A stretch of DNA of 35,877 nt, from the NCBI GenBank assembly GCA_012511795.1, contig JAAZFJ010000147.1, forward strand, positions 1 to 35,877, in the 5' to 3' direction. Positions within the stretch are counted from its first letter, which is position 1; the number at the start of each line of letters is the position of its first letter. The notes below the pieces were generated by a model. The model did not search any database and had not been told where the DNA came from. It saw only the letters and a program-made list of their open reading frames with translations. Shown here in pieces: positions 607-27,925 of the stretch. The position numbers and the translations under genes are program-made. Origin of the DNA: Syntrophomonadaceae bacterium. Lineage in GTDB: Bacteria; Bacillota; Syntrophomonadia; Syntrophomonadales; Syntrophomonadaceae.

Positions 607-2667
607 ATGAAAGTAGATGAAAAAATGACAAATTCTAAGGAAAAAGAATCTAATAACCTGGTAAACGAAAAATCCCCCTACCTCTTGCAGCACGCCCACA
701 ATCCTGTAAACTGGTATCCCTGGAATGAAGAAGCCTTTGCCAAAGCGCAAGAAGAGGATAAGCCTATATTTCTTTCTATAGGATATTCAACCTGTCATTG
801 GTGCCATGTAATGGAAAGAGAATCCTTTGAAGATGAGGAAGTGGCCGGATTATTAAATCAGAATTTTGTTTCTATAAAAGTTGATCGGGAGGAAAGGCCG
901 GATATCGATCACATTTATATGACTGTCTGCCGGGGGATGACCGGTCATGGGGGCTGGCCTTTGACCATCGTCATGACTCCTGAAAAAAAGCCTTTCTTTG
1001 CTGCTACCTACATTCCCAAAACAAGCCGGGGCGGTATGAACGGAATACTGGAACTCTTGCCGCGCATTGCTGGTTTATGGACAGAGAACCGTGAAGCGCT
1101 GGAGACTTCCGGTGAAAAAGTAACTGAGTGGCTTAAAGAGGCAGATAAAAGTGAAAGGCAAGCGGTCAACCCGAAAATTTTTGAAAAGGCTTATAAAAAC
1201 TTTTACCAGACTTTTGATGAGAAATACGGGGGATTTGGTCGGGAACCAAAGTTTCCTTCGCCCCATAATCTGATGTTTTTGCTGCGCTATTATCACCTGA
1301 CTGGAGACAAGAAGGCTCTTCATATGGTGGAACAGACCCTGGAAAAGATGTATCAGGGGGGAATGTATGATCATATCGGATTTGGCTTTGCCCGCTATTC
1401 GACAGACAGAGTATGGCTGGTTCCACACTTCGAAAAGATGCTCTATGATAATGCTCTCTTAGTCATTGCTTATCTGGAAACTTTTCAGATAGGTCAGCGA
1501 AACCGATTTGCCCGGGTAGCTGCAGAAGTATTAGATTATATTCTGCGCGATATGACTTCTGCTGAGGGCGGGTTTTATTCGGCAGAAGATGCTGATTCTG
1601 AAGGTGAAGAAGGAAAGTTTTATGTATGGGAGAAAGAAGAAATTTTATCGGCCTTAGGGCAGGAAAGTGGTAACCGGTTCTGTGAAATTTATGATATAAC
1701 TGACCGGGGAAATTTTGAGGGTAAAAATATTCCTAATCTTATAAAGTCACAAGCTGATGAAAATACTCGGGCCGATATTGAAGAATCCAGGAAGAAGCTT
1801 TTTTCCTACCGGGAAGTCAGAATACATCCTTACAAAGATGACAAAATACTTAGTGGCTGGAATGCTTTGATGATAGCAGCTTTGGCTAAAGCTTATGCTG
1901 TGCTGCAAAATCCTCGCTATCTTGATGCTGCTATGAAGGCCTTGGATTTTATTATGACCAAAATGCGCCGTCCGGATGGAAGACTGCTGGCCCGTTACCG
2001 GCAGGGAGAGGCACTATACCCGGCTTATGCTGCCGATTATAGTTATTTCATATGGGCATTAATTGAGTTATATGAAGCAACTTATGACAGCAATTTCTTA
2101 AAGACTGCAATAGAGTTCAATGATGAGATGCTGAAATACTGCTGGGACCAGGAAAATGGCGGTCTATTCTTTTACGGCAAAGATGGCGAGGAACTTTTGA
2201 CCCGCCCGAAAGAGGCCTATGATGGTGCCATGCCATCTGCTAATTCAGTGGCAACGCTGAACTTTCTGCGTTTGAGCAAATTAACCGGGGATAGCAGATT
2301 GGAAGAGATAGCACATGAGCAGCTGCAAGTATTTGGAGAAAGAATTAATGCACAGCCCACCGCTCACGCATTCTTTTTGTCTGCAGCTATGTTTGCCTTA
2401 AAACCCACCAGGGAAATAGTGATTACAGGTGAGATGAATGAAGAAGAGACTGCCCATATGCTAAAGGTGGTCAGAGAAAAATATATGCCGGATACCATCA
2501 CTGTTTTTAAACCGGGAGATGATGGTGAATCAATTATAGAATTAGCTCCTTATCTGAAGGATATGTCAATGGTTGAGAACAAGACCACTGCCTATATATG
2601 TGAGAACTATGCCTGCCAAAAGCCTATTACTCAAATTGAGGAATTTGATAGCAGGATCAATAATTAA
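607..2667 (+). CDS. yyaL: Thioredoxin domain-containing protein, DUF255 / YyaL (SPATA20-like) family
   Basis: [48 protein letters not shown] and [11 protein letters not shown] are typical of the family. Start may be ATG 607 or 625. Confidence 0.9.
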
Positions 2668-2690
2668 TACCAGGAGCTGAGTAAAAACAA

Positions 2691-2721
2691 TTGTTTCGCA
2701 AGTAATCGAATAGGTTATAAT
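2691..2721 (+). promoter_or_regulatory. Possible sigma-A promoter of the metal ABC transporter operon
   Basis: TTGTTT (2691-2696) and TATAAT (2716-2721), but with a long 19-bp spacer. Confidence 0.3.
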
Positions 2722-2752
2722 ACAAATATTAGAAATACCGAGGGAGAGAACA

Positions 2753-3628
2753 ATGCGAAGTAAGGTCATTTCATGGTTGTTAGTTTTCATTATGACATCA
2801 GCCCTGACTGGATGCAGCACTACAGCGGAAAAAAACGGAGTGGAAGTGAACACGGTCAAACCGGTGAAGGTTTTGGTAAGTATTTTGCCCCAGGCTGATT
2901 TTGTAGGCAGTATTGGCGGCGAAAAGGTGGAGGTCACTGTTTTGATACCTCCTGGAGCCAATCCGGAGGATTATGAAATGAGCCCCCGGCAGATCCAGAA
3001 AATCAGTGAGGCAGATATGTATATTACAGTGGGAAACATTCCTTTCGAGGAAATCAATATGGAGCGTATAAAATCAGCTAACCCTGACATGAGTATCATA
3101 AGTTTCAATGAAAAGCATGACGAAAATACAGAAGCACATAAGCATGATCCGCATGTCTGGCTGTCACCCAGGTTAGTTATGGAGCAAGCTGAAATAATCT
3201 GTAAAGAGCTCAGTCTGATTGATTCTGCTAATGAGACGTTTTATCTTAAAAACAAAAATGCTTATATCTCTGAGCTGGAAAGACTGGATATTGAAATAAA
3301 AGAACTTCTGGCAGACAGGCAAAGGGATCATTTTTTGGTTTATCATCCGGCCTGGGGTTATTTTGCGGAAGATTATGGTTTGGTTGAAATAGCTGTTGAA
3401 AAAGATGGGAAAGAGCCAACAGCTGGTGAGATGGCTAGAATAATCGAAGAAGCGGAGTCCAGAGGTATAAAGGAAGTGCTGGTATCACCCCAGCACAGTA
3501 CCCGCAGTGCAGAAACCATTGCTAAACAAATGGGGGGAGAAATAAAAGTTGTTGACCCCCTGCCGGGAAATTATATCGAAGGAATGCGAGAAGCTGCCTA
3601 TACTTTCAAAGAGGTCTTGAATGATTAG
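2753..3628 (+). CDS. znuA: Metal (Zn/Mn-type) ABC transporter substrate-binding lipoprotein
   Basis: Lipobox LTGCS; VLVSILPQADFVGSIGGEKVEVTVLIPPGANPEDYEMSPRQ; HKHDPHVWLSPR. Followed directly by ATPase and permease genes. Confidence 0.85.
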   Translation: MRSKVISWLLVFIMTSALTGCSTTAEKNGVEVNTVKPVKVLVSILPQADFVGSIGGEKVEVTVLIPPGANPEDYEMSPRQIQKISEADMYITVGNIPFEEINMERIKSANPDMSIISFNEKHDENTEAHKHDPHVWLSPRLVMEQAEIICKELSLIDSANETFYLKNKNAYISELERLDIEIKELLADRQRDHFLVYHPAWGYFAEDYGLVEIAVEKDGKEPTAGEMARIIEEAESRGIKEVLVSPQHSTRSAETIAKQMGGEIKVVDPLPGNYIEGMREAAYTFKEVLND

Positions 3629-16554: not shown

Positions 16555-16599
16555 AGAAATATCTATTAACAGATTTATATTACTTTGGAGGTGCTCGCT

Positions 16600-16866
16600 T
16601 TGCCAGCCTCGAGAAGGATTATCATAACGGTTCCTGAAAAGCTCTTATCTGAAGTTGATGATATTACAGTATTTGAATGTAAGAATCGCAGTCAGATAGT
16701 AAGGGAAGCTATTGGGTTTTATCTCCGCGAACGGAAGAGGGTTTTAACTATAGAGCAGATGAAAAAAGGATATCTGGAAATGGCCGAAATCAATTTGAGT
16801 TTGGCCTGTGAAGATATCGGGGTTGAAGTTAACCTGCAACATTTAAAAGAAAAACCGTTGGAGTGA
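16600..16866 (+). CDS. ndoAI: Antitoxin of the EndoAI/MazE-like family (ribbon-helix-helix)
   Basis: [44 protein letters not shown] domain, immediately upstream of a MazF/PemK toxin. TTG 16600 after GGAGGTG is the probable start (track start 16585). Confidence 0.82.
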
Positions 16867-16874
16867 TAATAAAC

Positions 16875-17222
16875 ATGATCAAACGGGGCGAGATTTATTT
16901 TGCTCAGCTGAATCCGGTGGTAGGCTCTGAACAGGGAGGTATAAGACCGGTAGTAGTTGTCCAGAATGACATTGGCAATCAATATAGTCCGACTACTATT
17001 GTACTGGCGATTACTTCCCAGATCAATAAAGCCAAGCTGCCTACTCATATTGAATTAAAGGCTGAAACTTATGGCTTGGAAAGAGACTCAGTTGTCCTGG
17101 CTGAACAAATCAGAACCATCGACAAAGCCAGATTAAAACAAAGGATCGCAGTCTTACATGAGGATACCATGAAAAAAGTAGATCATGCCTTGTTGGTTAG
17201 TTTAGCCTTGATTGAAAGTTAG
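16875..17222 (+). CDS. ndoA: mRNA interferase EndoA (MazF/PemK family toxin)
   Basis: [61 protein letters not shown]...[14 protein letters not shown]. Track start 16863 overlaps the antitoxin stop; ATG 16875 is likely. Confidence 0.93.
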
Positions 17223-23525: not shown

Positions 23526-24542
23526 GTGAAAACAGTGCCAGACATTAAAATATTAGGAATAGAGAGTTCCTGTGACGAAACTGCAGCTGCCATTGTAAAA
23601 AATGGGCGGCATATTCTTTCCAATGTGGTTAATTCACAGATTGCCATACACCAAGAGTTTGGTGGTGTAGTACCGGAAATTGCATCTCGAAAACATATTG
23701 AAAATATCACCCTGGTGGTAGATGCAGCTTTTAAAGAGGCTGGTTTAAAGTATGAGGATATCGATGCTATTGCTGTTACCAATGCTCCGGGCCTGGTAGG
23801 AGCACTATTGGTGGGTTTGTCATTTGCCAAAGGTTTTGCTTATGCTTTGGGTAAACCTCTTATTGCAGTAAATCATTTACATGGTCATATCTATGCTAAT
23901 TTTTTAGAGCATGATGATATTGAATTTCCGGCTGTATGCCTGATCGTTTCCGGAGGGCATACCAGCATACTTTATATGTCTGAAGCAGGGCACTATGAAG
24001 TTATGGGTTCTACCATTGATGATGCTGCGGGAGAAGCTTTTGATAAAGTAGCTCGTTTTTTGGGAATTGGTTATCCTGGAGGACCTGCGATTCAAAAAGC
24101 TGCCGCAGAGGGCATAGCAGGAAAATTTGTTTTGCCCAGAGTTTTTTTAAACAGAAAAAATTTTGATTTCAGTTTCAGCGGCTTAAAAACTGCGGCTATG
24201 AACCAGTGGAAAAAGAACAACCACGAAAATAACTCTGTCAATGATTTGGCAGCAGAATTTCAAACTGCCCTGGTGGAAATATTATCCGTTAAAACAATAC
24301 GGGCAGCACAGGAGTGTAATGCCAGATCAGTATTGCTGGCCGGTGGGGTTGCTGCTAACAGTGAATTGCGAAAAATGATGAAATTTAAAAGTGAACTTGC
24401 AGGCTTAAAAGTCTATTATCCGTCGCTGAAATTGTGCACTGACAATGCGGCCATGATTGCAGGAACTGCCTATAGTCAGTATAGTAAGGGTGACTTTGCG
24501 CCTCTTAATTTAAATGCTTATGCCAGTCTTTTGTCCTTGTGA
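23526..24542 (+). CDS. tsaD: tRNA N6-threonylcarbamoyladenosine synthase TsaD
   Basis: ILGIESSCDETAAAIVKNGRHILSN, VNHLHGHIYANF, LIVSGGHTSIL, LAGGVAANSELR, CTDNAAMIAG. GTG start. Confidence 0.95.
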   Translation: MKTVPDIKILGIESSCDETAAAIVKNGRHILSNVVNSQIAIHQEFGGVVPEIASRKHIENITLVVDAAFKEAGLKYEDIDAIAVTNAPGLVGALLVGLSFAKGFAYALGKPLIAVNHLHGHIYANFLEHDDIEFPAVCLIVSGGHTSILYMSEAGHYEVMGSTIDDAAGEAFDKVARFLGIGYPGGPAIQKAAAEGIAGKFVLPRVFLNRKNFDFSFSGLKTAAMNQWKKNNHENNSVNDLAAEFQTALVEILSVKTIRAAQECNARSVLLAGGVAANSELRKMMKFKSELAGLKVYYPSLKLCTDNAAMIAGTAYSQYSKGDFAPLNLNAYASLLSL

Positions 24543-24550
24543 AAAATGCC

Positions 24551-24580
24551 TGTGGATAATGTGCATAAGTCTGTTGATAA
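24551..24580 (-). promoter_or_regulatory. Tandem DnaA-box-like sequences (three in direct orientation)
   Basis: TGTGGATAA (24551-24559), TGTGCATAA (24560-24568), TGTTGATAA (24572-24580). On the minus strand: TTATCCACA, TTATGCACA, TTATCAACA. The first two fit TTATNCACA. Confidence 0.6.
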
Positions 24581-24666
24581 TTAATAAATAGCCATTCGCA
24601 TATTCTAAAATTAGTCCCAGTTATTTTCGACAAATGGTTAATCCCCTTAAATCTGTCAGTTGGTCT

Positions 24667-24675
24667 TGTGGATAA
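24667..24675 (-). promoter_or_regulatory. DnaA-box-like sequence
   Basis: TGTGGATAA (minus strand TTATCCACA), exact consensus, same orientation as the upstream trio. Confidence 0.5.
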
Positions 24676-24698
24676 CCGAAAAAGCAAGGAGTGGTGAA

Positions 24699-25454
24699 GT
24701 GTATCCAACGTTAGTTGAATTAGGACCAGTAAATGTAAATTCTTGGGGCTTTATGCTGGCTATCGCCGTAATAGTCTCAATCTTCGGTGTAGGACGCCTC
24801 TTTGACCGGGAAGGATATAACAAAGAAATGGTACTGGATATGGTCCTTATAATGGTCATATGCGGAATTATCGGTTCACGCCTGGCCTATGTATTAGTCT
24901 ATGATTGGCAGGCTTTTTTAAGTAACCCGCTGATGTTATTCAGTCTCCAGGATGGAGGAATTGCAGGTCTAATTTGGTATGGCGGCTTGGTGGGAGGGTT
25001 TATTCCTTTTGCCATTTATGTTTACAGAAAAAAACTTGATTTTTGGCTGTTGATGGATATGTTTGCGCCCTATGTTGCCTTAAGTTATGCCCTGGTAAGG
25101 ATTGGCTGTTTCCTGGCCGGATGCTGTTACGGGGAAGTTACTTCCTGCAGTCTGGGGGTTGTTTTCCCGTATCTGGATGACCTGCCCCGGCATCCCACTC
25201 AGTTATACAGTTCTTTTATCAACTTTATATTATTTGCATTTCTCCTGTGGCGTTACCCAAGGCGCCGCTTTACCGGAGAAATATTTGTTTTTTATATCGC
25301 CGGGTATGCAGTCTACAGGTTCATCATTGAATTTTTCCGGGAAAACCTTATCTTTTATGGGCCTTTCACTTTAGGACAGGTCTATACAGCGGGGCTTTTT
25401 ATTATTGCAGTTATACTTTATCTTTTAAGAAGAAATACCGGTCATTCAAATTAA
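24699..25454 (+). CDS. lgt: Prolipoprotein diacylglyceryl transferase
   Basis: VYPTLVELGPVNVNSWGFMLAIAVI..., GGLVGGFIPFAIYVYRKKLDFWLLMDMFAPYVALSYALVRIGCFLAGCCYG, HPTQLYSSFINF. GTG 24699 likely (track start 24660). Confidence 0.93.
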   Translation: MYPTLVELGPVNVNSWGFMLAIAVIVSIFGVGRLFDREGYNKEMVLDMVLIMVICGIIGSRLAYVLVYDWQAFLSNPLMLFSLQDGGIAGLIWYGGLVGGFIPFAIYVYRKKLDFWLLMDMFAPYVALSYALVRIGCFLAGCCYGEVTSCSLGVVFPYLDDLPRHPTQLYSSFINFILFAFLLWRYPRRRFTGEIFVFYIAGYAVYRFIIEFFRENLIFYGPFTLGQVYTAGLFIIAVILYLLRRNTGHSN

Positions 25455-27764: not shown

Positions 27765-27824
27765 GAAAAAAATTAATTGAACTCCGATTCATCTGGATCT
27801 AAGGTATTGGATTATTAGACATGG

Positions 27825-27925
27825 ACAGTTGAACAACAGGGTATAGGGGGACACCTTTATGCCTGTATGGAAAGGAGTATGTACTGTTATTTAAATGACA
27901 CTCTTTTCATGGGTGTTAATTTTTT
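27825..27925 (+). promoter_or_regulatory. Structured 5' leader with terminator-like hairpin (riboswitch/attenuator candidate) ahead of the moa cluster
   Basis: Nested pairs ACAGT (27825-27829)/ACTGT (27883-27887) and ACAGG (27836-27840)/CCTGT (27862-27866); then TGACACTC (27896-27903)/GGGTGTTA (27911-27918) followed by ATTTTTT, directly before SD GGGGGAGG. Confidence 0.45.

Follow-up and report, generated by a model that had tools for sequence, protein, structure and literature searches.

Four DnaA boxes in a single orientation lie directly behind tsaD (gcp) in a Syntrophomonadaceae genome, and boxes of the same kind and spacing are kept behind tsaD in about half of the distant members of the phylum that were sampled. 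By gene position and box content, the cluster is the positional equivalent of the gcp-ydiF cluster of Bacillus subtilis. It is probably a non-origin DnaA-box cluster of that kind, which would sequester ATP-DnaA and so delay or limit initiation. The window, that is, the whole stretch of DNA analysed, is 35,877 nucleotides long, and the gene order around the site is tsaE-tsaB-rimI-tsaD, the cluster, lgt and 5-FTHF cyclo-ligase. The features are as follows.

23526–24542, plus strand: tsaD (gcp), the anchor gene (TIGR03723, E 4e-132)
24551–24559, minus strand: DnaA box 1, TTATCCACA, exact consensus
24560–24568, minus strand: DnaA box 2, TTATGCACA, exact TTATNCACA, abutting box 1 with a 9-bp period
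24572–24580, minus strand: DnaA box 3, TTATCAACA, one mismatch, 12 bp from box 2
24581–24666, no strand: spacer, diverged in sequence, length mostly held
24667–24675, minus strand: DnaA box 4, TTATCCACA, immediately 5′ of the lgt ribosome-binding site
24699–25454, plus strand: lgt, the next gene (TIGR00544, over cut-off)

The positions and common orientation of the boxes (starts at 24551, 24560, 24572 and 24667) agree with the first-pass annotation of this DNA. The cluster begins 9 bp after the tsaD stop codon. Three of the four boxes (1, 2 and 4) are exact TTATNCACA, and the AT content is 65% in 24543–24698 vs. 58% window-wide. As in non-oriC clusters of the B. subtilis type, several consensus boxes are packed into a short intergenic stretch. 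The DnaA of the source genome has the usual GGRDHTTV signature in domain IV, the role of which is established. Elsewhere in the window, 27770–27893 is a Moco (molybdenum/tungsten) riboswitch (Rfam RF01055) 5′ of a small ORF and a moaA-like gene. A pair of small ORFs at 16585–17222, behind an alanine racemase gene, looks like a toxin-antitoxin of the MazEF/NdoA type when the translations are read by eye.

It is the clustering of the boxes, not their number, that is unusual. The window alone has three TTATNCACA sites vs. 1.7 expected, which is not out of the ordinary. The source draft genome (G000; 2.89 Mb in 419 contigs) has 105, vs. 57 for the reversed pattern used as control. Among the sites listed (100 of the 105), the tsaD-lgt site is the sole trio of exact TTATNCACA within 300 bp, where a Poisson expectation gives about 0.006 triples (about 0.001 in 125 bp). 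Within the same distance these sites include just one further pair, C297:14600/14690, in a secE-nusG-rplK region (gene names from translation). The earlier judgment that such clustering is unusual holds, although it was based on an estimate that assumed equal base composition.

The three-box head is kept at nearly all of the loci sampled in the order. We compared the DNA 3′ of tsaD at 43 order-level loci, the source genome included, and the three-box head is recognisable at 42 of them (the exception is L049 of genome G024). The box starts are 9 and then 12 bp apart, and the third box is usually TTATCAACA, its A-for-C variant being itself conserved. The fourth box, TTATCCACA, starts mostly 106–110 bp after box 2, and also at 96–97 and 127 bp. 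The distances from box 2 to box 4 near 97, 107 and 127 hint at one-turn steps, but 90, 103 and 113 are found too, and the genomes are related. Across these loci the spacer sequence has diverged while the boxes are conserved. In most of the family members that have lgt, box 4 is directly 5′ of the lgt ribosome-binding site. Box 1 and the 3′ end of tsaD overlap in the genomes of family f2 (L077, L078 and L079), where the TAA of the box supplies the stop codon of the gene.

Searches of entire genomes lead back to the same place. TTATNCACATTATCCACA is present in 32 of 41 family genomes, one copy in each, and the reversed control never; the site is at the tsaD position in all 29 checked of the 32. 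In 21 order-level genomes, 22 pairs of exact boxes lie on one strand within 30 bp, vs. one for the reversed control. Seventeen of the pairs are at tsaD, two are just 5′ of dnaA (G005 and G026) and three are elsewhere, which refutes the possibility, raised in the first-pass annotation, that equally dense clusters are numerous across the genome.

Outside the order, we took the 250 bp that follow the tsaD stop codon in 96 genomes of the phylum and used dinucleotide shuffles as control. In raw counts, from uneven sampling and with kinship ignored, these stretches contain 147 exact boxes, vs. a mean of 1.55 and a maximum of 6 in the shuffles. Most (132/147) are antisense to tsaD, and the commonest spacings of successive boxes are again 9 and 12 bp. 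At least two exact boxes are present in 47 of the 96 genomes and at least three in 24, and in each 250-bp segment from 500 bp after tsaD onward the number of genomes with at least two is zero. The suspicion that the cluster is conserved in its position next to tsaD is thus borne out. The genes 3′ of the cluster vary, and include lgt, 5-FTHF cyclo-ligase, murC-like, radical SAM, nuoE-like, convergent and other genes (names read from translated sequence, mostly not run against a library). Maintenance of the cluster beside tsaD in very distant lineages, despite the changed downstream genes and spacer, points to long-standing selection. Fewer than two exact boxes follow tsaD in roughly half of these distant genomes, and so the element is dispensable or movable. 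In genome G058 there are no boxes behind tsaD and a cluster is 20 kb off, beside 5-FTHF cyclo-ligase. A phage-type integrase gene adjoins it on the tsaD side (L255:1901–2062 and 2490–3339 for this locus), a layout that insertion of a mobile element would be expected to produce.

We also searched 399 genomes of the phylum for the three-box 30-mer TTATNAACANNNTTATNCACATTATCCACA, irrespective of where tsaD lies. It was found in 66 genomes at 80 places, and the reversed control at none. Forty-five of the places are 11–827 bp 3′ of tsaD and 31 are 0.2–8 kb from hpf; two of the remaining four (G155:C241 and G202:C10) adjoin a comFC-type gene. At several hpf-side loci that were inspected, the module is behind a ComF-family gene (double zinc ribbon and/or phosphoribosyltransferase domains). 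Apart from tsaD, the TTATNAACANNNTTATNCACATTATCCACA module recurs at a single further location, behind comFC in the neighbourhood of hpf. The comFC-side module occurs in about 33 genomes of the phylum, usually near hpf and sometimes near secA (in L264, L268–L271, L274, L275, L279 and L282–L284 the 30-mer is near position 1501 of the locus). The module is sense to the comFC-type gene and antisense to tsaD. Both modules are present in 12 genomes, and in the single-contig genome G144 they are on opposite sides of dnaA, as are the comFC-side module and the tsaD-side boxes of G110. In the source genome hpf is on contig C367, and no box is found there among the sites listed.

The strict geometry and the comFC sister site are additions to the known cluster type. 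In the literature searched we found no report of such conservation beyond Bacillus or of the depth of the comFC site, although absence there is not proof. The conservation of the tsaD cluster is much deeper than any we found reported. Its presence behind tsaD in about half of the distant relatives sampled suggests that the tsaD-side boxes are of ancient origin and keep DnaA occupied at a distance from oriC, thereby helping to time replication. A bolder reading, which we offer tentatively and would not put ahead of its negation, is that TTATNAACA-N3-TTATNCACA-TTATCCACA is an ancestral, phylum-wide DnaA-control module behind both tsaD and comFC (on opposite replichores in some genomes). The two sites might then act together as a sink or switch dedicated to ATP-DnaA, a counterpart in Bacillota of datA/DARS. 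The four-box element, now defined, and the comFC sister site provide concrete targets for studies of DnaA control.

Where the cluster stands relative to oriC and dnaA, a question raised in the first-pass annotation, can be seen in two complete relatives (G022 and G005). The switch point of GC skew and of gene strand bias is dnaA in both, rather than tsaD. The tsaD site is 807 kb (G022) and 446 kb (G005) from dnaA, or about 0.55 and 0.38 of the half-chromosome, and other genomes of the phylum have tsaD, or the cluster in the case of G058, at 0.17–0.73 of that length. Because the skew puts the origin at dnaA in the two relatives, the tsaD cluster is not oriC there, and its location is outside the replication origin. 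What could speak for a second or the true oriC at tsaD is the box content: three exact boxes and one near box in 125 bp, vs. two exact and one near in the dnaA region of the source genome (L067, C99:10001–18000), which is on a different contig from the cluster. The skew in the relatives rules this idea out, and we give it practically no weight. Given the few boxes in the dnaA region, the cluster at tsaD may be an effective competitor for DnaA. With three near-consensus boxes at dnaA, oriC of the source genome may rely on weaker sites.

Regulation of lgt had been proposed as another function. DnaA at boxes 1–4 would be a transcriptional operator that represses or activates lgt, or tsaD-lgt read-through, and couples lipoprotein modification to the DnaA level. 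In this genome, as in most members of the family that carry lgt, box 4 directly precedes the lgt ribosome-binding site, which is in keeping with this proposal, and a role of DnaA as a transcription factor is known (PMC4447404). However, the spacer has no good sigma-70 promoter on the lgt strand (the plus-strand matches at 24531 and 24553 are weak), and the B. subtilis cluster sits between two 3′ ends (PMC4447404). Above all, the cluster is kept with many other next genes, convergent ones included, which speaks against an lgt operator. Such control is an unlikely primary role; it may be a local by-product, and it cannot explain the phylum-wide pattern. A chance match, or an element acting at the RNA level, can be set aside almost completely. 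TTATNCACA by itself is common in the draft genome, but the clustering, conservation and spacing are far in excess of chance. The transcript folds no better than shuffles (z 0.55), and at the gathering threshold no Rfam family matches at the cluster.

The remaining alternative concerns the nucleotide bound to DnaA. The geometry of the site might promote ATP hydrolysis or nucleotide exchange, rather than simple sequestration, making it a DnaA-nucleotide switch and the counterpart of datA/DARS in Bacillota. The strict 9–12 head-to-tail geometry, the deep conservation of the tsaD cluster and the held distance to the fourth box (its one-turn steps are suggestive only) would suit such a switch, as would the preference for ATP-DnaA at the B. 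subtilis gcp site (PMC4447404). All the same, we regard a switch as quite improbable. To our knowledge, no datA/DARS-type activity has been described in B. subtilis. According to a review, B. subtilis has neither datA nor DARS loci, and what balances the nucleotide state of its DnaA is left open there (PMC13220808). By what means Bacillota restrict initiation, lacking Hda, SeqA and datA, is likewise an open question (PMC13220808).

Sequestration of ATP-DnaA, the reading that we prefer, draws on what is established for B. subtilis. The first-pass annotation placed a DnaA-box cluster near gcp in that organism, correctly: one of its strongest DnaA-binding regions, with 10 sites, lies 3′ of gcp (= tsaD) and ydiF, and about 16-fold more of its DNA is recovered with ATP-DnaA than with ADP-DnaA (PMC4447404). 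The region is one of six non-oriC clusters, according to Okumura et al. (2012) as cited in PMC5295017. When the six are deleted together, initiation is early; the effect is strong only with all clusters gone and is partly relieved by one reinserted (PMC5295017; PMC13220808). The gene context of the present cluster is the same, tsaD being gcp. The non-origin clusters of B. subtilis have so far been read as largely redundant titrators.

By analogy with B. subtilis, we infer DnaA binding, cooperativity and titration in the source organism, and with them the path from boxes to delayed initiation. DnaA, preferentially ATP-DnaA, would bind the three closely packed same-direction boxes cooperatively, and the fourth box, about ten helical turns off, would add to the binding. 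The site would hold several DnaA molecules, and would itself double in copy number when the fork reaches it partway along the replichore. The consequent lowering of free ATP-DnaA would delay or limit re-initiation at oriC.

In closing, we compare the cluster with three known systems. It shares with oriC arrays the same 9-mer and their same-direction arrangement, but it is away from the GC-skew switch and from dnaA. Like datA of E. coli, it appears to be a non-origin box cluster partway along a replichore (here judged from complete relatives, the source genome being fragmented); datA, however, is at another locus, needs IHF and drives DnaA-ATP hydrolysis. The closest likeness is to gcp-ydiF of B. 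subtilis: both are right behind tsaD/gcp, have multiple boxes in an intergenic region and are outside the origin. They differ in that gcp-ydiF has 10 mapped sites between 3′ ends, whereas here four boxes precede a co-directional lgt.
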